The notes below the pieces were generated by a model. The model saw only the letters and a list, made by a program, of their open reading frames with translations. It was not told where the DNA came from and ran no database searches. Made by a program: the position numbers and the translations under genes. Below are positions 1 to 41,100 of a DNA stretch of 64,000 bases, piece after piece. Origin of the DNA: Nannochloris sp. 'desiccata' (lineage: Eukaryota; Chlorophyta; Trebouxiophyceae; Chlorellales; Chlorellaceae); assembly GCA_019044685.2 (NCBI GenBank), contig JAGTXX020000006.1, positions 2,561,501 to 2,625,500 on the forward strand. Direction: 5' to 3'. How positions within the stretch are numbered: the first letter of the stretch is position 1; each line of letters begins with the position of its first letter.

Positions 1-819
1 CCAAAGAGCCGAGTACTTCAACTAATTTCGAACAAAATGCCATATTGGCTCGGACGTAGGCAGACCAGAGACCAGGGTCGAATCGGCCAGTGGAGTTGGG
101 ATTGAGTGGAATAAGGTAATGCATCATAGGCCAGAGCTGCTGTTTGCAGAATTCTAGTGAAAAGAGGGGAGAGAAAAGGAAAGGGGGGGGGGGGGAGGCG
201 TTAGGTTTAAAAATAAATGAAAGTTTTCTCGGACTCAGGTTCGGAAAAGTTTAGAATTTAGAGCTTACTTTTATAATAGTTATTCTTGAGTTCAGCACCC
301 AGGAAGACAGGATGGCAGTTAAATTGGGTCATTAATTGCTGAGCTACCTCTTCCTGTTCATGGCCTTCCACCTCAACTGGGAGACAGCCAACATAAACAG
401 CCTCGACCTCATCTGGGAGACCCTCTTTTGCTTGAGTGATAAGAGCATCTTCATCAAGCTCAAATACCCATCCCTGGACCTCGTCACGCTTCACTATAAG
501 TGGTAGATGGTTGGACACGAAAATTAATCTGTAGAAGAAGGGTTGCGGGTTCAGTTAGTGAGGCAACAGAAGGGGGGAACAAAAGACGCCAGGGGTGATA
601 CTGATCAAAGCTTTAGTTTGAGAAATGTAATTCTTCCGGAACAACTCACCGCTGTGTTCTTTTACCGACATCGCCATCTAAAGAAGCTTGTGATCCTAGA
701 TTAGCAGCTGCACCAGCGTGTGACAAGGGACCCCCACCCTGAAGTTCCGACATTGAACCACCGAAATCCCCTTGAGCTAGGGCCGCTAAGTTAGAAAAAG
801 ATTTACGTGAAAATTGCAT
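1..819 (-). CDS. Trehalose-6-phosphate synthase, class II type (5' part, runs off left edge)
   Basis: Glucosyltransferase family 20 (TPS) N-terminal region. Three exons are visible: 819-650, 528-269 and 153-<1, with GT-AG introns at 649-529 and 268-154 and consistent phases. The N-terminus reads MQFSRKSFSNLAALAQGD, which resembles the conserved start of plant class II TPS proteins. It is followed by the GT20 core start (LIFVSNHLPL), a VQGWVFELDEDAL segment and FCKQQLWPMMHYLIP. Class II TPS proteins carry a TPS domain plus a phosphatase domain and are mostly regulatory; only about 190 residues are seen here, so catalytic residues further on cannot be judged. The start is the first ATG and matches the family start. 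Intron 2 contains a 13-nt poly-C tract on the sense strand (183-195). Confidence 0.9.
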
Positions 820-1279
820 CGTTATCTATGTGTTGATATAAGTTTAAACTAAGAGGTCAGCGTTGTCAATTATGCCATTGATGGCATCCGAAATGCGCCA
901 GAGCGCTCCAAAGAGGGTCAAGTGTCCTCTGCACTAGGACGCAGTGTAAACAAAGCGTTACTATATCTCAAATCTTTACAATGTGGAGGTGCATTGGTAT
1001 CTGTAGAGTTTTATCCCCATATTTTTGCACCCATCTGTGCTGGCACCCCCTTTCGCCTGATCTTCAGTTCAGTCACAGCAGCAGCCTGACTAGTGGCATT
1101 AAAAGAATATAATTCTAAACCCAGCTTTGTATGTTTACAGACATCTTACAAAGAATAGAACGAATATACACAGAACAACTGAAAAGAATAAACGAATACT
1201 AAAACAAAATTTGAACATTTCCGTCAAGGTCGCCACCGCTGCCGCTGCTGCTGATATACAACACAGAGTTAATTTACAT
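820..1279. other. Intergenic, TPS promoter side
   Basis: 460 bp between the TPS start and the end of the CX9C gene, both on the minus strand. It should hold the TPS promoter and 5' leader. I see no convincing coding exon, tRNA or repeat. Confidence 0.5.
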
Positions 1280-1812
1280 TTAATTATTCCTGGGATCTAC
1301 TTGATGCGCTGCTATACACATTTCTAGTTTCAGTGCTTGTTTCCGGCATCGATCTGGGACCAAAGGTGGCCCTACAGGCATTTTGCTACGTTGATTAACA
1401 ACACCGACACACCCTTCTAAATCTTCAACTGTAAAGAAAAGTAGAATAATTATAATAAAACAGTCATTGATTCTATTCTGCGAACGCAAATGCATCGGAA
1501 CTTCAATACTACTTGGCATTAGTAATAGCATAAATATTCCCAATTACTCTTTGTACCTTGAACTGGGCAAGCCACTCGAATTAAACACCACCCTGCCGCT
1601 CGGTGCAAGTGAGCACAGATAGTGTCTTGCTGCGTTGGATGTTTCTTAGCACAGTCTTGAAGAGACGCCAATATTCTATTACATTGCAGAGCTGAAAGAG
1701 ATTTTGGTGGGTTGATTGGATTGCTATCATTACTCCCAGAAGTACCACTTTTTACAGGAGGAGCAGGAGGTGGACTGGCGCCTCCGTCGCTGCTTTCGCT
1801 GCCAGAAGTCAT
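1280..1812 (-). CDS. Small quadruple CX9C (CHCH-like) protein, putative mitochondrial intermembrane-space protein
   Basis: Two exons, 1812-1557 and 1428-1280, join in phase across a GT-AG intron to give 134 residues. After a 40-residue Ser/Pro-rich leader there are four CX9C motifs: C44-C54, C66-C76, C82-C92 and C113-C123. The third pair is completed across the splice junction, which supports the intron. Twin CX9C proteins are imported by the Mia40/Erv1 disulfide relay and often act in respiratory complex assembly or as accessory subunits. NDUFA8 is a known four-CX9C protein, but I do not see its sequence otherwise. The family is assigned from cysteine spacing only; the specific function is unknown. 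Confidence 0.75.
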
Positions 1813-2355
1813 TTAGTACAGTCTTTCCTGGCTTTAATCTCGGCCTGAAACATAAAAATAGCTTCCTTTAAGTATCAAGAGCCTATTCATTTATCCGCAT
1901 TTGTCAATATTGATTCTTTAACCACATTGGATTCGGCGGGAGATTTTCAAAAGGAATTGCACAATGAACTCGTTTTAGAAGACAATGTACCGGCCTGCTC
2001 CGCTATAAAATCATTGATATGACATTAAGCAAACAAAATATTGATCATTTCAATAACAGTGTTCTATATTTCGCGGCGAAGTTGGGCTCGAATGGCCCGG
2101 GTCAAGTTAAGCACTTCGCCGAAGCACAGCGTGTCAGGGCGGCCCCGACGGCCTTTAATAATCTGATGCCCGGTCTGACTTTCCCATTATCATAATTTCG
2201 ATTAACGCTCCCAGCGAAGCACTCAGCAACAGTATTTGCGTCTCTTGGACAACGTTCATAGTCAGCAATCTTGTCAACCATCTCCCCCGACTGCCTTATT
2301 GGCCCTTCAGCGAACAAACTGGCTACCTCCCTAAATACCCGCTATATAAATAATC
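1813..2355. other. Intergenic with GC-rich, structured island
   Basis: Lies between the CX9C gene (-) and the SAMDC upstream ORF (+). It contains a GC-rich block at about 2070-2320 unlike its AT-rich flanks, with an 8-bp inverted repeat (GGCGAAGT at about 2074 and ACTTCGCC at about 2123) enclosing a smaller GGGC/GCCC stem. A 71-codon ORF on the minus strand (2102-2317) has no recognisable domain. A TATATAAATA element sits at 2342-2351. It could be a promoter/5' leader or an unrecognised structured RNA; no match to U1-U6, U3, SRP or tRNA consensus was seen by eye. Confidence 0.35.
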
Positions 2356-2793
2356 ATGAGTTCAGAATCTACGAGTGAACCTAGTAGTAGTCGAGTCCGT
2401 AGTAATCATTTTAGTAAAACCAAGAACAGCGGAAACACAGTTGCTGCCTTTGAGCCGCCCATTCCTCTCGTAGTAGAAGATCTTAGACCTTGGGGAGCAG
2501 GTGAGTTATTTGATGGTTTCAAAATTCGATTGGAGTTGCCCAGTGTGCATCTTGGGCTTCTGTCTGACGGCTGCCAGATGCTCCTCTGACTTATTTCTTT
2601 GGTTTTTTTCCTTCTGCAGAGCCCTTCAGCGCAGATTTTACTGACGTAAGTATAGATCCTAACTTCATGAGGAGTAAACCTCGCTAGATCGACCTCGAGG
2701 TTGCCGATTATGTTCGCCTGGTGGGCTGAAGCCTTTGAAACTAAACATGTTTCCTTCTTTTATTCCTCGCAGATCGTTAAAAAGCCTAGATAA
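2356..2793 (+). CDS. Conserved upstream ORF of AdoMet decarboxylase (SAMDC-type CPuORF), spliced
   Basis: Three exons, 2356-2500, 2620-2645 (a 26-nt microexon) and 2773-2793, join in frame to a 63-residue peptide ending at TAA. Its C-terminal half (PLVVEDLRPWGAAEPFSAD then FTDIVKKPR) aligns with the conserved part of the plant SAMDC small uORF peptide: VEDLRP against the plant IEDVRP block, then an F-S-A run and a KKPR terminus against plant RKPS. In plants this peptide stalls ribosomes when polyamines are high and represses SAMDC translation, and its coding region is also interrupted by introns. Here it lies 176 nt before the AUG of the SAMDC-ODC gene, and I see no other AUG between its stop and that AUG. 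The plant tiny uORF that overlaps the small one is not evident. That it is on the same mRNA is inferred from position. Confidence 0.82.
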
Positions 2794-2969
2794 CAGGATC
2801 CGTGCACCGTATACTTATAGATCTTAGTAAAGAGCCCACCTTGGACTCGTCTTAGTGCCTCCTTTAGACAGGCAATCTATCAATTTCAACCAATCCCTCT
2901 ACGTATTTCGTAACTCCACTGGTTTCTTTACCCCCCCTTTAGAAAAAGACCAACCAAACTTTAAACATT

Positions 2970-5641
2970 ATGTCTCCCCCTAGCAACGAAATCTTCCCTT
3001 GCCCCGTCTTCGAGGGGTCAGAGAAGCGTATCTCCATTAGCTTCTCCCCTTTATCTGGCGCACCCGCCCCCCCGGCCGCCGGACTCCGTGCCTTGACTCG
3101 CACTCAGCTTGATGCCATGCTTGAGCTCGCTGCCTGCGAAATCGTTTCTGTACGCAATGGTGTCTCCTTTGACGCCTATGTGTTATCTGAATCTTCTCTG
3201 TTTGTTTACCCTGACAGGATGGTTTTGAAAACGTGTGGCACTACTCGCTTGCTTGAAGCCGTGCCCAGAATTACAGGGTTGGCTGCTGGGTTGAACTTGG
3301 CCCCTTCTAGGGTCAAGTACTCCCGTGCTTCCTTCTTGTTCCCTGAAAAGCAGCCTGAGCCTCATCATGGGTAAGTAGAATTTACCCTTTTCTGTTGTAA
3401 AACTTCCCCTAGGAAACATCAAGTTCCTCACTTTGTTTTGGAAATGGCGACCATGTGTGGAAACTAATTTTTTCTTTTTCTTTAATAAACTACAGATTCG
3501 AGCATGAATGCAATGTCTTGCATGAGCAATTCGCCTCTTTAGGCTCTTCCTCTGCCTACGTCCTGGGCGATGCCCTCAACGGTTTGCAATGGCACGTCTA
3601 TGTAGCAGGAACTCATTCTGCTTCCGCCAGGACTCACCCTGCCGCTGCCCGTGCCCCTCGCCACACCTTGGAAGTCTGCATGACTGGCCTCGCCCCCCAC
3701 AAAGCAGCTAAATTTTTCCGGACCTCTGAGTTTGTTTCTTCCCAAGAGACCACAATCACCTCTGGCATTGCCAACTTGGCACCTGCCCATGCAATCGATG
3801 ACTACGTCTTTGAGCCTTGTGGATACTCTATGAACGGTATGTCTGGTATTGAGTACTCTACTATCCACATTACCCCTGAAGATGGCTTCTCTTATGCCTC
3901 TTTTGAGCTCTGTGGTTACGACCCTGCCGTCCACTGCCCTGCAGAGTTGGTAGCTCGCTGTGTTTCTGTGTTTGCGCCTTCTTCTGTCTCTGTAGCGCTT
4001 TCTGCTGATACTTTGGTGCCTGGACCTGCTTCTCCTGGTTGGGGAGACTCGTTCCAGGCTCCTCTTGGGTACGCCTTCCACTCTTCTTCTTATCAGGAAG
4101 TCTCTTGTGGAGGCTATGTGGCATATTTTACGTTGGAGGCAGGTACAGAGGCCCAACAACAGCCTGCTGTCCCGATGATTGCTACCACTGCTGATGTACA
4201 CAACAAGGGGGGTGTTGATGGAGGCTCTTCTGGCTCGGAATGCTCCAGCTCTCCTCGTGGTGTCTTGAAACACTTGCCGTCGTTCAAAACTTTACCCGCT
4301 CCTGCCTCTGTTACTGCTGATATCGACTTAATGGCTGGTTCTGACAACTCCTCCGACTGCGGCGTAGATGCTAGTGGTCGTGGTGCCATGGAAGCTCAGA
4401 TGCCTGCTACTGTTGAGGAAGTTGCTGCTTTGCACGCTGCGGTCCCTCTCCTCCACGGAGATGCCACCACTATCGATGCTCACATCCGTGACTTGATCGA
4501 TCGCCATTCTTTGGAGGATAACCTCTATGTTATTGATTTGGGTGCTGTGGATAGGCTCTATCGTGCTTGGGGTGAAGCAATGCCTCGTGTTCATGCCCAT
4601 TATGCGGTGAAGTGCAACAACGACCCTGCGTTGCTTTCTAGCTTAGCTGCCTTGGGTGCTGGCTTTGACTGTGCGTCTGAAGCTGAAGTTGAGCAAGTCA
4701 CTGCTATGGGTGTCTCTCCTGATCGTATCATCTTTGCAAACCCTTGCAAACGACCTGCAGACATCCGCTTTGCTGCTGCAAAAGGCGTCACTTACTCGAC
4801 TTATGATACCGAAGCTGAGCTCTTGAAGCTCCGTCGCTGGGCTCCTGGCTCGCGTGTGTTACTCCGTATCCGTGCTGACGATCCTACTGCCCGTTGCCCT
4901 CTTGGAAACAAGTTTGGAGCCGAAGAGTGGGAATGGGAGGAGTTGCTTGCTGCAGCTCGTCGTCACGGTGTTCCTGTGGACGGTATTTCCTTCCATGTAG
5001 GCTCTGGAGCTACCAACCCGGCTGCATTCTCCTACGCCATCGAGTTAGCACGTCGTGCGTTTGATCTCGGTGCTGCTTACGGCTTCCAGATGTCAATTTT
5101 GGACATTGGCGGCGGTTTTTGTGGTGGCCGCTTTTTCTCTGATGGTAGAGTCGACCTTGGAGGTGTCCCTGCTGCAGTCAACTCGTCTTTAGCACGTCAT
5201 TTCCCTGAAGGATGCGGTGTACGCGTGATCGCTGAACCTGGTCGCTATTTTGCTGAGTCTGTAGCAACCCTGGCGTGTTTGGTCTACGGCCGCCGCCAAC
5301 GCTGCTCCGAGCCTGGAGCCACCCCTTCTTTCGACTACTGGATCACCGATGGTTTGTACGGCAGCATGAATTGCTTGTTATACGACCATGCCACAGTCTA
5401 TCCACGCCCTCTGGGTGATCCCAACAGCTCTGCTGCGAAAGTTGCTCCCTCCACCGTCTTTGGCCCCACCTGTGATGGTCTTGATACTGTGGTGCGTGAT
5501 TACCCTTTGCCTGAGTTGCAGGTGGGTGATTGGTTGCTGTTCAGACGCATGGGTGCATATACTCTCTGTGGTGCTTCTAAATTCAATGGCGTGAACGCTG
5601 TTGATGTACCTACCTTCTATGTGGCATCTGCCGCCCCTTAG
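2970..5641 (+). CDS. Bifunctional S-adenosylmethionine decarboxylase-ornithine decarboxylase
   Basis: Two exons (2970-3370, 3496-5641) give 848 residues. Residues 1 to about 350 are an AdoMet decarboxylase. It has the FEGSEKR start with processing Glu15/Glu18, the self-cleavage motif LSESSLFVYP (pyruvoyl Ser75), Cys89 in KTCGTT, and Ser245 and His258 in CGYSMNGM...TIHITPEDGFSY. A low-complexity linker runs to about 455. Residues about 459-848 are a eukaryotic-type ODC (fold III): PLP Lys506 in HYAVKCNND, HVGSGA, DIGGGF, EPGRYF, catalytic Cys793 in FGPTCDGLD, and DWLLFRRMGAY. All key residues of both enzymes are present, so both activities are expected. Products are decarboxylated AdoMet and putrescine, the two substrates of spermidine synthase. 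The domain order matches the Plasmodium bifunctional enzyme. The 3371-3495 intron falls in the SAMDC half; nothing splits the two domains, so the fusion is in one open exon. Confidence 0.95.
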
Positions 5642-7511
5642 AATATTTCACTTGAGAGAGAATGCATTTACAAAAAAAAGTGTGAAATTAGAGAGCGAAA
5701 AAGAATTGAAGAAGGATAACTACACTTGCTTTGTCATTCACCTGTAGTGCTGCTATATTTGCGGAGTTTGGATGCTGTGTTCAATGGCATACATACCGGG
5801 CTGTGGCTGCTGGAAAGAAGCGCCCCCTTGTTGTATTGTGTTCTTAGAAAAGCGAACACGAGCTCCTCCTGCATCAGCAACGACAATCCATGCTGTCTTC
5901 TTCATATCTTCTTTCCTTCTTCTTCTTCACTCTCCTAGTCCTATTTAGTGTTCTACCTTCTAGCGAGTGCCCTCTGTTGCGCCCTCATATAAATTTAGAT
6001 CTTTGTACTTGTGATTCTCCCCAGGGGTGGTGGGCAAAAAATCAGGTCAAATCTATTTTTATCTTGAGGTTTATTCTTTTCTACCCCTTGGGTGTCGCTG
6101 CAACAACATTTTTAAAAGAGGATGTCACCCTGGCTACTAGCTTTCCTTAGCTGCCCCTTCTTTTAGCTTCTGTTTTAGATGTTTATTTCATATTTAGCTC
6201 GATGCTACTGTTTCCCTCTGCGTATTTAGCTAATATCAACCTTTAGCTACTCATAGTAAATATGACCAAGGAGATAGAAAGCTCGCTGAAACCCCCATGT
6301 TACTGTTCTTTTTTTTCAAAAAATATCTCAATGTCTACTTTTGTCTATCAAGAAATATACCAACGAGTACTTTTTTTTTTTATATACATTCCTTAGAAAC
6401 TTCTTATACGTATTGTTGTTTTCTCTAGCTCTTGAAACCTTCTGTTCGTTTTTCGTCAGTAGCAGTGCGAGAAAATTTTACATGCTAAGAAGTATGAGAA
6501 CTCGCTTAAGAGCTCGGATAAGGCGATGATTTACCTTTTAGTTTATTTTTTGCTTCTTTATTCGTATCGAAGCAAAGTAATCTTCTCAAGGAATTTCGTC
6601 TTTCCACTTTTGGTCCCCGCTGCTGGTAGTATCTGCAGCGGGGGGTGAGGAGGGTGCCTTTGTTTCAATTTACAGGTCCCCTGCGGCAAAAATCAAGAAA
6701 AATTTTCAAATATATGGTTTGGCTAGTTCTCTTTAATGATGACGGTCTTATCATGTTTTAATATTTGGGGCGTGGTGCAATGTTGTTTTTCGATCAATCA
6801 ATATCTAATATACATATGCGAGGATTTTCCTCGCTGTGGTTTGTTTTTTAGCGTTCTTTTCAATCTTTTTATTTTCAAAACATGTCTCATGCACCACTGC
6901 CCCACCGCAGTTCAATCTCCATTTTCTCCTTAGAGGAAAGTACAGATAAGAACGCCGTTGTGGTTTTCTTTCTGTCTACTCTCTCTCTACGTGAGGTGTC
7001 TCCTCTCTTTTTACCTTTGGCCCGTCTTGATAAGAAGAAAATTTTCATTTTTCATATATACTATTGCATCTCTTTCAAGGCGATTTGTGTTTGTTTGTTT
7101 GGCCATGGCAAGACTAAAAGGTGCTGCGTCTTACTCTGCTCTTTAAATATATTAATGGTTTATAGAGATAGAAGGAAGCCAGCTGCCTAAGCGCTGATTG
7201 ATTAAATTTAAAACTCGGAATTGTTCCCATTTGTTTTCCCATTGCTTCACTCAATGTAGAAGAAGATGACAGACTTTATTTTGTACATATAAATGGGTAT
7301 GTGTGGTTTTTTGTTTCTCATGAAGCTCTCGTACTTTTGATGACGAAAAATATAATCATTGTAATTTGTTGAAAAATAAGTTTATCGCTATCTTTAAATA
7401 AAAAAGTTTTATAGTAATGAGCAGGAAGGAAGGGATGGGGTGGAGATAATAATCTTGACAATGCCAGTAATAGGCTGCTTCGGCTTTCTTTGAGGGTCTC
7501 CTCTGCTTAAA
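5642..7511. other. Long gene-free T-rich region
   Basis: About 1.9 kb between the SAMDC-ODC stop and the CHRD gene end. The plus strand is T-rich with several short ORFs (for example 5726-5938, 6341-6529, 6882-7190) that show no domain, no splice-supported extension and biased hydrophobic composition from T-richness. A perfect 9-bp GC hairpin is at 6615-6643. It may include a long 3' UTR. I find no gene. Confidence 0.5.
6615..6643. repeat. Perfect 9-bp GC-rich inverted repeat
   Basis: CCCCGCTGC at 6615-6623 is exactly complementary to GCAGCGGGG at 6635-6643, with an 11-nt loop. It stands out in an AT-rich, gene-free region. It might be an RNA hairpin in a transcript 3' region or a chance palindrome. 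Confidence 0.6.
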
Positions 7512-8189
7512 TTACGCATTTAAAAAGCCGCGGAGGATGGCAGCATTTTCAGGGCCGTGCACATTAATGTAAATCTCATTTTGAGAGACAAAATCAGTAA
7601 TAAATTTGCGAATAGAGGTCACTCCAAGAGTATTTTTAAGCTCAGAAGTATCAGAAGAGCCCACATACAGCTTTGAGTCGGGAATATCAATCGGAGCAAT
7701 GAAGTCACCTTCGGCGAGTTCAGGCACCAGGTGCTGCACAATTGGTCCCGCAGGGGTGTTCAAATGGAGGTGAGCGCCAGTGAAGTCTTCGATATCAAAC
7801 AATGAGAGCTTCCAAATGATATGAGTGTCGGTAGCCAGCCAGCTGAAGATGGCCCGTGCATCTGCATTAGGGTTGGGGGTGTCAACTTCTTCTTTGTCGT
7901 CGATTTCGCGAACAGAAGAGACACGAACAGGCGGAGCAATAGAAACAGCAGGGGCAGGAGCATCAGGGACAGGTACCAACGTGATTTTATCGACGGCTAG
8001 AATGCCCTTGATGTTTACGTTGGGTAAGATGAAGGCGGAAAGCTCGGTGTCAGGGCCAAGTTTCTTCAATGCAGACACGAGGTTTGCAACCTCGAGGTCG
8101 AGAGCAGAGGAGGCCTCAGTGGTTGCAGTGGCTGTGCATGCGAGCAGAACCAGGGCAAGGCCCATCTTAGAAGCAGAGAAAGTCGTCAT
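7512..8189 (-). CDS. Secreted CHRD-domain protein, copy 1
   Basis: 225 residues, single coding exon. An N-terminal hydrophobic signal peptide (MGLALVLLACTATATTEA) is followed by a variable region and a C-terminal CHRD-like domain. This has the characteristic AHLHLNTPAGPIV segment and the end block YINVHGPENAAILRGFL, which parallels the CHRD pattern of an H-x-H-Gly region and a closing N-V-H...G-x-x-R-G-x-L strand. CHRD domains are found in chordin and in many uncharacterised microbial secreted proteins; the role here is unknown. It is a tandem paralogue of 8858-9451, almost identical over the domain but with an insertion of about 30 residues after residue 80. A 5' UTR intron is likely: donor GTAAGC at 8328, acceptor TACAG ending at 8206. 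Confidence 0.8.
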   Translation of the reverse strand: MTTFSASKMGLALVLLACTATATTEASSALDLEVANLVSALKKLGPDTELSAFILPNVNIKGILAVDKITLVPVPDAPAPAVSIAPPVRVSSVREIDDKEEVDTPNPNADARAIFSWLATDTHIIWKLSLFDIEDFTGAHLHLNTPAGPIVQHLVPELAEGDFIAPIDIPDSKLYVGSSDTSELKNTLGVTSIRKFITDFVSQNEIYINVHGPENAAILRGFLNA

Positions 8190-8857: not shown

Positions 8858-9451
8858 TTAAGCATTTAAAAAGCCACGGAGGATGGCAGCAGTCTCAGGC
8901 CCATGAACATTAATGTAAATCTCATTTTGAGAAATGTACTCACGGATGAACTGGCGAATAGAGGTGACTCCAAGGGTCTCTTGGAGTTCAGAAGTTCCAA
9001 AATAGCCCACGTAAACCTGGCTGTTAGGAATATCGATCGGATCAATGAAGTCACCCTCAGAGCGTTCAGGCACCAAATGCTGCACAATAGGACCAGCAGG
9101 GGTGTTCAAATGGAGGTGAGCACCAGTGAAGTCTTCAATATCAAACAAGGAGAGCTTCCAAACGATATGAGTGTCGGTAGCCAACCAGCTGAAGATGGCG
9201 CGTGCGTCTTCATTTGGAGTGCCTTCAACAACAGGCAAAGGAGCCAAGGTAAGCTTGTCAGCAGCGATGAGGCTCTTGGCGTCTACTCCGGGTAAGTAAA
9301 ACACGGAAAAATCGCTGTCAGCACCGAGTCTTTCTAATGCAGCAACAAGGGTACCAGGGTCGATGGCCTCAGTGGGCTCGGAGGTGGCGCAAGCCGTGCA
9401 TGCGAGGAGGGCGAGGGCAAGGCCCATAGTATATGCAGAAAAGAACTTCAT
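8858..9451 (-). CDS. Secreted CHRD-domain protein, copy 2
   Basis: 197 residues, single coding exon, with a signal peptide (MGLALALLACTACATSEP) and the same CHRD-like C-terminal domain as copy 1 (shared WLATDTHI, LFDIEDFTGAHLHLNTPAG and INVHGPE blocks). A splice acceptor (AACAG) abuts the ATG directly, and a GTAAGC donor lies at 9568. The leader intron (9568-9452) is therefore in the same relative place as in copy 1, which shows that the duplication included the 5' region. Function is unknown; it is likely extracellular or in the cell wall. Confidence 0.8.
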   Translation of the reverse strand: MKFFSAYTMGLALALLACTACATSEPTEAIDPGTLVAALERLGADSDFSVFYLPGVDAKSLIAADKLTLAPLPVVEGTPNEDARAIFSWLATDTHIVWKLSLFDIEDFTGAHLHLNTPAGPIVQHLVPERSEGDFIDPIDIPNSQVYVGYFGTSELQETLGVTSIRQFIREYISQNEIYINVHGPETAAILRGFLNA

Positions 9452-14102: not shown

Positions 14103-15936
14103 TTAAGCCCCCGAAACTCTCCTCTTCAATTCATTTTGTAAATGCCCCAATTCAATCCCAACACCGCCAAGCACATCCGAATTTTCTTGCGCCCTTCTCA
14201 ACAAATACGGCATCACTTCATCGACCCCACCAAAAGGAGTATACTTATATGCACCATACTTATGGGCGCCTAGAGTGAAGGTCAAGTGATCAGCCATGCC
14301 TAGAAGCTGCCCAAAGGTAACACCAGAAGATGGCGGCAACCCTAAAGCCGCCATCCCAGCGACTGTTTGCTCCACAGACTGTTGATTATGTGTCGCTACC
14401 ATAATCTCCGCTCCATTATCACGTACACTAGGCAACAATGCAGCAACAGCAGCATCGTAGGCAGCGTCAGTCTCTTCTTTTGTCTCCCAAATAGGCGAAG
14501 GTAATTTCAGTTCTGTGGCCCGTCGCCGCTCCAGAACCATATATGCCCCTCTCACTAACTTACACCCAAATTTATACCCTTCACGGTTTGCTCGTTCTAT
14601 ATCGACAGTAATTCTATCGTGAACGTCCTTCAAATAACACTGGTAGGTATTATAAATTCTTGGCTCGTCTTTATTATGTTCCCGCTGCAACTGAGCCACT
14701 ACAGCATCAATCGCAGGCTGGAAATACGAATGCTCAGCATCGACGAGTAGTCTCACTCCACTTGAAGCAGCGGCTTCTGCTAAAGTATTCACACGTTTGA
14801 CCATATTATCCAATAATTGCAATTCTTCTTTCGTTAGTGCGGCACGAGAGAATGGACCTTGTTCTCTACACCTAGCCCCAATCTCTGCACCGTCATAGAT
14901 AGTCACACCTTTCGTAAAGGCAACATAATCGACTTTACCATCGCGATCAGTATCTAAATAGTCAAATACTTCGTTCATTCTGGCTTCGTCCGAGTCCACA
15001 AATAGCCGAGAGTAGACTCTTGAAAACTCCTCAGGCTCCAAAAATCCATCTCCATTCTCGTCTAGCTGGCTAAACAGGGACCTGACTGCAAGTAATGCAG
15101 TACTGACACGTTCTAATAACCGTGGCATACCCAGCGCAGTGACTTTGATCGCTGTATACCCAGAACTTGAGTGCTCATCAGGACTGCGAGCGGCATCAAT
15201 TGACAGCAAAAAATTTTCCATGCGTCTATCACAAGCTTCTTCATCTTCATACTTGTAGGTACGACTGATGACGGTATCTATGGGTGGTTGACGACTTGCA
15301 GGACCTTCTTCTGCCTCTACATCGTCTTCTGCAGCGTAATCAAGCACCGCGCCCACACCTGCCTGTCGAAGGCGGCGCAGGGTTGGTTGAATGCCTGCAG
15401 CGTCGGGCCCTGCTACAAATTGCTTGTAGAAGGTGTGTTTGAGGACCCAATTGACGAGGGTTGAACCGAAGATGGATTTCGATTTTGAGAGGATAGTGTC
15501 AGCGTTATTGACGAGCCAAGGAAATTGGCATGCTCTAAAAACAAGAATTGATCTGACAATCTCTGAATTAGTCTTTGCCTGTAGGGAAGAATTGGAAGAA
15601 TATGATAAGAAAAAGGAAATTAGCTGGTATAATAAAAAAGTAAGATCATTAATTATTCTTCTCAGTGGCGGAAGGCTTTTTTGTAATAAATTAGTTTCTT
15701 ACCCTATATGCTTCCCAAGGGCTGTTGAAATCCAAAGAAGAGGGCAAGGGAACGGGTTTCTCTACCGGGGTAATTGGCGGATCTTCTACATGGGCTGGGT
15801 CGACAGCTGTTGCTGTAGAAGTAGAGAAGGCAGCACATTGAGTGGGGAGCGGTAAGCAAGGGCATTGGCGAGAAGTTGTCAGCTTTACAAGCCACTCCTC
15901 ACGGCGAACGAGTTCACGGGCGGCGAACCGTAACAT
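14103..15936 (-). CDS. Proline dehydrogenase with an EF-hand pair, mitochondrial
   Basis: Two exons, 15936-15703 and 15578-14103, give 569 residues. The N-terminus (MLRFAARELVRREEWLVKLTT) is a typical basic amphipathic mitochondrial presequence. The PRODH barrel shows LLVDAEHSYFQPAID, YNTYQCYLK, KLVRGAYM, LLGMADHLTF, YTPFGGVDEVMPYLLRRAQEN and a C-terminal QNELKRR. It oxidises proline to pyrroline-5-carboxylate with FAD, feeding electrons to the respiratory chain. Inserted between the first strands and the rest of the barrel are two canonical EF-hand loops, DENGDGFLEPEE (about 251-262) and DTDRDGKVDYVA (about 287-298), with correct Ca-ligand spacing. EF-hand PRODH forms are known in some eukaryotes; the plant enzymes I know lack them. 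Ca control of activity is inferred. Confidence 0.93.
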
Positions 15937-38183: not shown

Positions 38184-41100
38184 TCAGGTGTCACTACCAC
38201 TACCGCTTTCGCCACCACTACTGCTGGGTGTGCTCTTGCGCAGCTCTTCTTCAGCACCTGCCGCTGCAGCTAACAACGCGTCTACTGGTCTATACGTCCC
38301 TCTCGCAGGAGGTGTTCCAATAATAGTGGGGCCACTTCTTCTTCTTTCCTTCTTTCTTCTTTTTCGGCCTGTTTGTAAAACGCCGTGTTCTGGATAATCA
38401 CGATGAGCATGTTGCACTTGTTCTTCCGGGAGAGTAGCCATAGAGGAGACAAGCTGCGTCCCTGCGGTGCTGACGTTCCATCTGCCAGGGGAGAGCTTCA
38501 TTGTACGACTTGGAGAAGGGAAAGAAAACTCGGTAGCACTGCTAGTTTTGATCCGATGTATAAAAGGGAGGGTGCGAGTGTTCTGCTGAGACCAAGGAGA
38601 AGTGCCAGGAGGTGGCACAGATGTCGCTGTACGTGCTGCTGTGGCTGCCGGTACTACAGCTGGTTTCAAAGGGACAGTAGGCAATTGAGGTAAAAGCAGA
38701 AATTCCCCAGCAACGATGGCTTTAAGGATCGCATGGGTTTCTGGAAGGAAAATTGTATTATAAAACTGAAATATATGAATTGTAGGGGGATACCGCTGGG
38801 ATTGATTTCGTTCAGGAGGTTGTTGTTGCTGCGGAAATGCCGGCAGCGGCAACACGCCTGCTCCACCACTTCCACTGGCATTGCTGTTAAGATACTGGTC
38901 AACCCATAAGGTGCTGACATTATATATATAATCACTCCCAAAGCATCGATTATATGCATCAAGCAAGCCACGAAACCCACCACTGAATGCCACTACTTGC
39001 TGAGTAGCTCCTTTCGTGATCCCGTACATGGCACACACCATAATTTGATCTAGGTGACGTCCATACATCAACCACGTGTGTTCTCTTAAGATTGCGTCAA
39101 CAGCGGTGACTATCTGGAGAAGAAGATGATCAGAAGCAGCGGTGGCGGCGGCGGCCATGGATTGCCCACGTAGTCCAGTTGAGGAGAAGAGCAGGTGGCT
39201 CAGACGGACAGTAACTAGCTTCAAAGCTTTATCAATAAACGCAGAGAGTAATGTATGCGCTTGCGAAGTTATTGCTTTTGGTGTGTCGGTGGTCGCTACA
39301 GCGCTGCCAAGTTTCCGTGGGGGAAGTTCTTCAGCAGTGATACCAGATGTTGTTGCTTCTCTGAGCATTTCAAAGAGAGAACTACCTTCTTCCCATGCAT
39401 ATTTCTCAATAATTCGTTCTTCTACAAACAAAAGATGCCTTTTTAGAACCTCAGACATCGTTTTTTGATGTGTTACGAAGAAACGAGGGAGCAGCCTGGC
39501 GACGGCAAACGCCGAAGCGTTGTGACAAATTTTTAAAGATGCAGGAAAGTCATACGTTGCTCCTAATTGAGCGCTAGAAAGGACGCACTCTAAGGACAGT
39601 GCCATGATGCATTGAGTTAATACCGTATTTGAAGCGATCTTATTTATTAAGGCACTTGATGCTGTATTACTAGTTGTACTAGGAGTTGTACTAGAAGTAC
39701 CAGCAGCACTGCAAGTGGCCGATCCGAGCTCTGCTTGTAAAAGAGAATTCAAGGTGCAATAAAACAGAGACATCGTAAGCTTTTTTAGCCTAGAAAAATC
39801 TAAAGTCAGACCAACGAATGCCCCAGCCCCGCCACCAGGGCGTTCTTCCTCCAGCTCCATTGGCTGTGGCGCTGGCGCTGGCCACGCAGCGGTGTGTAGC
39901 ATGCTGGTTGCCGAGGTAGCTAGATGTGTACGCGTTTCCTCTGAGACACCATACGACACAAGATGTTTTTGAATTGTATTAATATCTATCGTCATGGCTA
40001 TATTATCCAGCCATTGAAGCGCTTCGAAAGCTTCAATTGTAGAAAGGCCTCTACTTTTTCTACTTCCAACCGCCCCGACTGCCGCTTGAGAAACATGGGG
40101 AATAGGCTGTACTTCCTCCCTGGTCTTGGCCTTGCTTGGCCGAGGAGGAGTGTGCATTATATGTCCTTGAAACAGAAACCCTAAACTTTGAACATTTTGC
40201 TGCTGCGTTGCTTGGTCAATGTGAGTGAGCGACACATTTTCCGGAACTGGCAGTGCCACTGTGGCTCCTTCTTGAGCTTCTTTCTCTTCCTCTTCTTCAA
40301 GGAAAACTCTCTCGTCGATCTCTACATTCGGACAAACCACCTGATCTATATACGTATTCAAAGCATGCATAGCACTTTCAGGGACCTGTCCATCGGCATC
40401 GATAAGCCCAACAAAGAGCCTGCCGCCTGAAAAAGGGACACTGGTACCTGGAGGTACATCAAGAGGAAAGGATGACTGGCTGCTGCTATACAGCTCCTCT
40501 ACGCCAACAGGGTGGAGCCCAATAGGTGCTAGAATTTCAGCTAAAAGAGCATCGACAGCTTGAGTTAGTTTTGTCGCAGCGAGGTAGACCTGAGGGGCTA
40601 GGTCGTGCTGCTGCTCCAAAGTGCGGCAGCTGAGGGAAGCTGCTACAAGGCATTGCAAAGTATCTGCAGCACCCTTATTTGTTCTATATGGGAAGTGAAA
40701 ATGATCTGAGAAGGGCTTTCGTAGGCTTGGAGAAAAGAGAGGTGTGCTAGAGAGCAGAATATTCAAGCACGCGAGGGGGAGAGCGAGTGCATTGTGGTTG
40801 GAGGGGTCACCGCCTTGTTGGCCCGGTAGCAAAGTATGGCGAGCAGCAAAACACAAGTTCCACAGAAAACGATACAATGAGCTAGGATCAGAAGCTATGA
40901 ACGAGCCTTGATATCTCAGAGTATAATAGAACGCAAAGATTCTCTGCAAAGATTGAAAATGGGCAAGATAGATAAAGTCAATCTAGAAAAGTGAGATCAA
41001 GAAGCAACAGATCAGCACGTCAAGGATCGCACATTCAAAGATTCTCGACTCGCGATGCAGTTATCATAGATCGGTTGTACCATTGCAAGCCATTCCTGGT

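Follow-up and report, generated by a model that had tools for sequence, protein, structure and literature searches.

In the bifunctional enzyme of Plasmodium AdoMet decarboxylase (AdoMetDC) comes first and ornithine decarboxylase (ODC) second, and we know of no plant-type upstream open reading frame (uORF) for its gene. For seed plants, separate AdoMetDC and ODC enzymes are established. The plant AdoMetDC leader peptide ends in VRKPS-stop, and basic residues at the putrescine-pocket positions of the potato enzyme are the reason that plant AdoMetDC ignores putrescine. The active site of ODC is formed across a dimer.

Bifunctional AdoMetDC/ODC is presented as a Plasmodium peculiarity in the excerpted text of PMC10216422. 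The excerpt of PMC1890295 describes the P. falciparum enzyme as one polypeptide with a hinge, encoded by a gene of 4257 bp that carries six parasite-specific inserts, the numbering of which implies that AdoMetDC precedes ODC. Other fusions – SpeD-SpeDC and AdoMetDC-aminopropyltransferase of bacteria and diatoms – likewise join polyamine steps (excerpts of PMC10407285, PMC12803844 and PMC6356823); their partners differ from those of the fusion described here, and the bacterial AdoMetDC is of class 1.

The gene that concerns us lies in the trebouxiophyte green alga Nannochloris sp. 'desiccata', in a window (the whole stretch of DNA analysed) of 64,000 nucleotides, C6:2561501-2625500, within a genome of 21.55 Mb in 18 contigs. 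As in Plasmodium, AdoMetDC and then ODC are encoded in one open reading frame and joined in one polypeptide, here by a coding sequence of 2547 bp; the likeness seen is one of architecture. The first-pass annotation had reported such a fusion, with the two enzymes ordered as in Plasmodium, in a genome of the green lineage, and both the gene model and the Pfam domains bear this out.

Results

The fusion gene comprises 848 codons plus a stop in two exons (Table 1; spliced model read from the sequence). Its protein matches, in each case above cut-off, the Pfam families SAM_decarbox (residues 13-306, 320 bits), Orn_Arg_deC_N (483-720, 242 bits) and Orn_DAP_Arg_deC (670-820, 68 bits), and alignments with the human and potato AdoMetDC chains and with that of T. 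brucei ODC cover the expected parts. That one gene encodes a complete AdoMetDC followed by a complete ODC, as first annotated, is thus confirmed by the spliced model, by Pfam and by the catalytic residues. The accompanying statement that both domains occupy the same open exon holds for the remainder of AdoMetDC, the linker and ODC; it fails for AdoMetDC residues 1-133, which belong to exon 1.

Table 1. Features of the fusion gene and its upstream reading frame (window coordinates).
Feature	Position	Strand	Content
uORF exon 1	2356..2500	+	codons 1-48 plus one base; AdoMetDC-leader-like peptide
uORF intron 1, predicted	2501..2619	+	GT-AG
uORF exon 2	2620..2645	+	predicted splicing
uORF intron 2, predicted	2646..2772	+	GT-AG, after codon 57
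uORF exon 3	2773..2793	+	IVKKPR, then stop codon
Spacer, uORF stop to main start	2794..2969	+	176 bases, without ATG
Fusion gene exon 1	2970..3370	+	AdoMetDC residues 1-133, including pyruvoyl-forming Ser75 and Cys89
Fusion gene intron	3371..3495	+	GT-AG, 125 bases
Fusion gene exon 2	3496..5641	+	remaining AdoMetDC (Ser245, His258, Glu262), variable linker (about 346-455), entire ODC (Lys506, Asp764, Cys793)

The linker, approximately residues 346-455, is the least conserved part of the protein: in an alignment of fused proteins (51 of the 120 listed) windows 337-456 have mean conservation of 0.07-0.31. The stretch that connects the two halves, 306-475 in the numbering of the window protein and including the C-terminal end of AdoMetDC, varies from 106 to 220 residues (median 145) in these 51 proteins.

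A second copy of the gene is present on the reverse strand of a 457 kb contig, where C13:208000-217900 corresponds to window 1-7941 with 99.5% identity across 7.95 kb, which is what a second haplotype or a recently duplicated segment would show. Its coding sequence is open and departs from that of the window by two bases, one silent and one giving G373V in the linker; the uORF peptides of the two copies are identical. The database protein P0002 differs from the window protein solely at residue 373, where it has the valine of the C13 copy.

Both halves retain the residues on which catalysis depends. The AdoMetDC half belongs to class 2 (TIGR00535, 290.9 bits; cut-off 233.15), keeps the self-cleavage sequence LSESS, and has the full active-site set: E15, E18, S75, C89, S245, H258 and E262, which correspond to human E8, E11, S68, C82, S229, H243 and E247 and include the four residues named in the first-pass annotation. 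The ODC half (E 3e-103 against T. brucei ODC) was examined for the PLP lysine, the histidine, the Glu/Arg phosphate site, the substrate-binding Asp332, Cys360/Asp361 and Tyr389; all are found, as K506, H634, E714, R717, D764, C793, D794 and Y822. The assignments of Lys506 and Cys793 likewise stand, aligned with T. brucei K69 and C360, and Asp764 aligns with D332. This last position is presumably that at which Asp is replaced by Glu in chlorovirus arginine decarboxylase. The effect of an Asp-to-Glu change is given in the excerpt of PMC6356823.

In the putrescine site, R20 and K116 stand where the human enzyme has L13 and F111, and human D174 is R189 here; R20 is common to seed-plant SAMDC. With basic residues of the plant type in this pocket, putrescine probably does not activate the AdoMetDC half.

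Upstream of the fusion gene and on the same strand there is a predicted 63-codon spliced reading frame, 2356-2793 (Table 1), which the first-pass annotation overlooked and which is likely to be a shared control element. Residues 21-62 of its peptide match positions 7-50 of the 51 in PF08132 (AdoMetDC_leader) with E 0.0048, at 17.2 bits against a Pfam cut-off of 25, and its VKKPR-stop resembles the VRKPS-stop of the plant leader; at its N-terminus it is longer than the seed-plant leader. Two fused gene models of Chlorokybus and one of Closterium include a leader that scores above the PF08132 cut-off. When the uORF peptide was compared with individual leaders, shuffled sequences did as well in 0 of 5000 cases for Closterium, 2 of 5000 for the angiosperm Tetracentron, and 41 and 11 of 5000 for the two from Chlorokybus. 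In three of these four gene models the similarity goes no further than the residue opposite codon 57; in the fourth (P0058) it extends about three residues further. Because the similarity stops in three of four models where intron 2 begins, we suggest that the position of this predicted intron is shared with the other leader-bearing models. A six-frame search of the whole genome with PF08132, in which no control genome gave a match either, returned nothing, the uORF being split by its introns. Homologues of the AdoMetDC uORF extend to Ulva and Chlamydomonas according to the excerpt of PMC2075485; in the open-licence literature we found no statement of a green-algal leader that precedes a fused gene and so would govern ODC as well.

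The fusion is not peculiar to Nannochloris. Among the 120 best of 567 matches to the full protein (8000 candidates), 119 hold both families – a proportion that is not a natural frequency, for the search was restricted to lengths of 0.55-1.75 times that of the query and so disfavours standalone enzymes. The exception, P0030, has 507 residues and ODC domains only. Fusions listed include chlorophytes (Micractinium, Trebouxia, Coccomyxa, Bryopsis, Tetraselmis, Nephroselmis, Cymbomonas) and streptophytes (Klebsormidium, Chlorokybus, the zygnematophycean Closterium, Marchantia, Riccia, Selaginella, Adiantum, Ceratopteris), and AdoMetDC precedes ODC in those examined; none from seed plants or Chlorophyceae is among these 120. 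Eight listed rows give MMETSP as their source and seven bear Trinity names; since we take these to be transcript assemblies, the fusion is probably transcribed as one open reading frame in relatives. The proposal that this is an independent fusion in one alga does not survive such a distribution, from chlorophytes to ferns, and we reject an independent recent fusion on this ground. The further statement that in plants the two enzymes are separate is right for seed plants, and wrong for liverworts, Selaginella and ferns, all of which carry fusions.

Standalone ODC and standalone AdoMetDC are both found in Chlorophyceae and Pedinophyceae. Standalone SAMDC occurs in addition in seed plants, Chara, Selaginella and Pyramimonas, and standalone ODC in Sphagnum, lycophytes, Mesostigma, Klebsormidium and some trebouxiophytes; part of these standalone records could be split gene models. 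The seed-plant SAMDC proteins sampled are without an ODC half, yet share the AdoMetDC lineage of the Nannochloris fusion and a related leader peptide. Green standalone ODCs (Chlamydomonas, Volvox, lycophytes, Sphagnum) are of the same ODC family with the same active site; they have no AdoMetDC half and are placed among or beside fusions in the trees.

In prokaryote genomes (80 of 125 related loci kept) the matched residues listed span the ODC half or the AdoMetDC half, none both, and by tblastn none of 19 pattern-matched stretches on viral contigs encodes a relative. Eukaryotic-type AdoMetDC matches were seen on Desulfobacteraceae and Endozoicomonas contigs (L058, L060, L068), in agreement with the excerpt of PMC10407285, which reports that certain bacteria have acquired class 2 AdoMetDC by transfer.

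Of the 119 fused proteins, 33 entered the trees of the two halves, 29 of them with an organism assignment and 4 of environmental origin, together with three sequences of solved structures. Standalone ODCs were 24 of 120 listed (21 green, 3 animal), with a 25th – the second part alone of a rearranged Stephania protein – added to the quick ODC tree only; standalone AdoMetDCs were 19 of 120 listed. The potato row of the AdoMetDC tree is without its beta chain, and the fusion of P0044 (Apatococcus), which lacks the cutting motif, was divided at fixed positions. For records labelled solely Chlat, Mesen, SM, Mesvir, Botrbrau, Chrzof or Astpho, we read the organism name from the database prefix.

The ODC tree has 58 rows (33 fusions, 21 standalone, 4 outgroup). 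Within the chlorophyte group (96/90) the early branches are fusions and a standalone clade lies inside (94/88). A streptophyte standalone clade (95/84) falls inside the main streptophyte group, itself weaker (80/79); the quick ODC tree places these standalones as sister to the fusions rather than nested. Near the root the standalone Mesostigma ODC groups with Chlorokybus fusions (96/81). A single clade of standalones is rejected (AU p 1.7e-6), as is a single clade of fusions (p 2.7e-8); the narrower within-lineage tests, framed after the trees were seen, give p 0.015 and 0.020 and are of moderate weight only. With outgroups coded as standalone the tree needs a minimum of four label changes, for which one gain and three losses suffice. 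Separate ODCs co-occur with the fused gene in Klebsormidium (P0075/P0155), Myrmecia (P0032/P0130) and Coccomyxa elongata (P0039/P0216), and these separate ODCs sit in the standalone clades.

The AdoMetDC tree (54 rows) likewise rejects standalones as one clade (p 3e-65) and fusions as one clade (p 1.8e-6). Here seed-plant SAMDC and the fern fusions are sisters (99/91), nested within the streptophyte fusions (100/97); a tree constrained to keep the 14 streptophyte fusions in a group that excludes seed plants is rejected (p 0.00046, again framed after the trees were seen). Six label changes are needed, and because standalone Pyramimonas is sister to fused Cymbomonas, more separations are required than the ODC tree alone shows. 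Deep nodes are weak in both trees. In the AdoMetDC tree resolution is poor at the deep chlorophyte nodes, the branch to the human outgroup is very long, and Bryopsis, Tetraselmis and Nephroselmis are placed elsewhere than in the accepted phylogeny.

In the Nannochloris genome the AdoMetDC family has four matches, namely two exons in each of the two fusion copies, so that the whole-genome search found no separate AdoMetDC gene. Matches to the ODC superfamily also number four: the two fusion copies and one gene each on C11 and C12. As a second ODC the C11 gene is rejected by its score as a DAP decarboxylase (400.8; cut-off 297.9), and the C12 gene by its score as an arginine decarboxylase (533.5; cut-off 369), although under a second arginine decarboxylase model, TIGR01273, it remains below cut-off (513.7 against 624.1). 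No separate ODC gene was thus found among the superfamily matches of the genome. An agmatine deiminase is present on C9 and, since arginine decarboxylase and agmatine deiminase were both found, the alga appears to possess the opening two steps of the arginine pathway to putrescine; ODC may therefore not be the sole source of putrescine. Spermidine-synthase-type matches comprise a strong one on C11 and a weak one on C1. The strong match and the DAP decarboxylase lie about 4.4 kb apart or less (C11:946502-950933). A search for ODC antizyme (PF02100), in which no control gave a match either, found none in the genome.

Discussion

We consider it quite probable that the gene encodes a bifunctional proenzyme behind a plant-type uORF, that the fusion is ancestral in the green lineage, and that the standalone enzymes are later separations. 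On sequence evidence the protein is probably bifunctional. The AdoMetDC half would cleave itself between Glu74 and Ser75 – as the LSESS site and the conserved partner residues lead us to infer – to yield a short beta chain (1-74) and a pyruvoyl alpha chain, which would stay covalently attached, via the flexible linker, to the PLP-dependent ODC. The ODC half is expected to form the usual head-to-tail dimer. A single protein would then deliver both putrescine (from ornithine) and decarboxylated AdoMet to spermidine synthase, and it is plausible that the fusion fixes the ratio of the two. If putrescine does not activate the AdoMetDC half, coupling of the two steps would come by equal dosage and shared translation rather than by allostery. 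The predicted uORF probably throttles both activities: high polyamines would stall ribosomes there, and both enzymes would be lowered together.

A critical issue is whether the gene and its leader are what they appear to be. That an assembly or gene-model artefact has fused two adjacent genes is a possibility we regard as negligible: nothing speaks for it beyond the caution sounded by the first-pass annotation, exon 2 stays open through the linker, and the fusion recurs in other species, including in proteins with transcript names. A chimeric join is, moreover, unlikely because a 99.5% identical copy with the same structure stands on another contig, and on these two grounds – second contig and other species – an assembly chimera is rejected. 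A precedent for a fusion with a dead or structural half is human spermine synthase, the partner domain of which is a dead AdoMetDC (excerpt of PMC12803844). For the green fusion such an arrangement is very improbable: across the 33 fusions in the trees both halves preserve the catalytic positions surveyed, save for no more than one gapped row at any position and a single record that has D in place of E15 and E18, and the Nannochloris genome search found no separate AdoMetDC or ODC gene. The small upstream frame could, for its part, be a chance reading frame or a separate small gene, a view to which its sub-threshold Pfam score and predicted splicing lend some colour. We think it improbable nonetheless, given that position and strand are right for a leader, that no ATG intervenes before the main start, that the best similarities are to leaders of the same gene by the shuffle tests, that three of the four models lose similarity at one common point, and that the peptide has a plant-like ending.

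The alternative history, in which the green lineage began with a standalone ODC and fusion took place independently at least twice (once in chlorophytes and once in streptophytes, for instance), is in our judgement unlikely. The standalone Mesostigma ODC near the root, among basal nodes that are weak, is as this history would have it, and so is the placement by the quick tree of standalones as sister to streptophyte fusions. Yet chlorophyte fusions branch outside the standalone clade, the domain order is the same in all fusions examined, independent gains counted on the ODC tree exceed the minimum of four changes, and the fused models of Chlorokybus and Closterium share with Nannochloris a related leader across the deepest green split. 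The distribution of the fusion, the standalones nested within or adjacent to fusions in both trees, and the sufficiency of one gain and three losses lead us to place the fusion, with moderate confidence as regards the exact node, in the ancestry of green plants; against this, the grouping of the Mesostigma ODC with Chlorokybus fusions also fits a later origin. On an ancestral fusion, standalone seed-plant SAMDC and the standalone ODCs of several green groups would be later separations and not the starting state. A more specific picture, towards which we lean slightly, is that the last green-plant ancestor had one translational valve, a polyamine-sensing leader before a single AdoMetDC-ODC: seed-plant SAMDC would be the surviving front half, still behind its leader, and the standalone ODCs would be back halves freed from the control of the leader.

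Should the fusion indeed be ancestral, it would follow that crops have their two separate enzymes as a derived state, that database names reading 'ornithine decarboxylase' or 'S-adenosylmethionine decarboxylase' alone conceal half the pathway, and that entries of 'SAMDC absent' may be wrong. One uORF would put feedback control on both committed steps – a candidate reason that the fusion lasted – and every loss of the fusion would alter that shared control. We found no description of a green AdoMetDC-ODC fusion in the open-licence literature. Table 2 of a 2018 microalgal review (PMC6356823) lists XP_003057072.1 of Micromonas pusilla under both ODC and SAMDC, and records SAMDC 'absence' for Chlorella variabilis; the excerpted text of the review carries no remark on a fusion. 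As far as that excerpt goes, the green fusion has stood in plain sight, unremarked, in a published table.

Other genes in the window

Further genes of the window, all on the reverse strand, include two adjacent reading frames (7512-8189 and 8858-9451), each with a CHRD domain just above the Pfam cut-off and possibly forming a small tandem family, and a Retinoblastoma-family protein with RB_A and RB_B domains (38184-40949). At 14103-15356 a proline dehydrogenase domain and an EF-hand pair lie within one reading frame, a combination that hints at calcium-linked proline breakdown.
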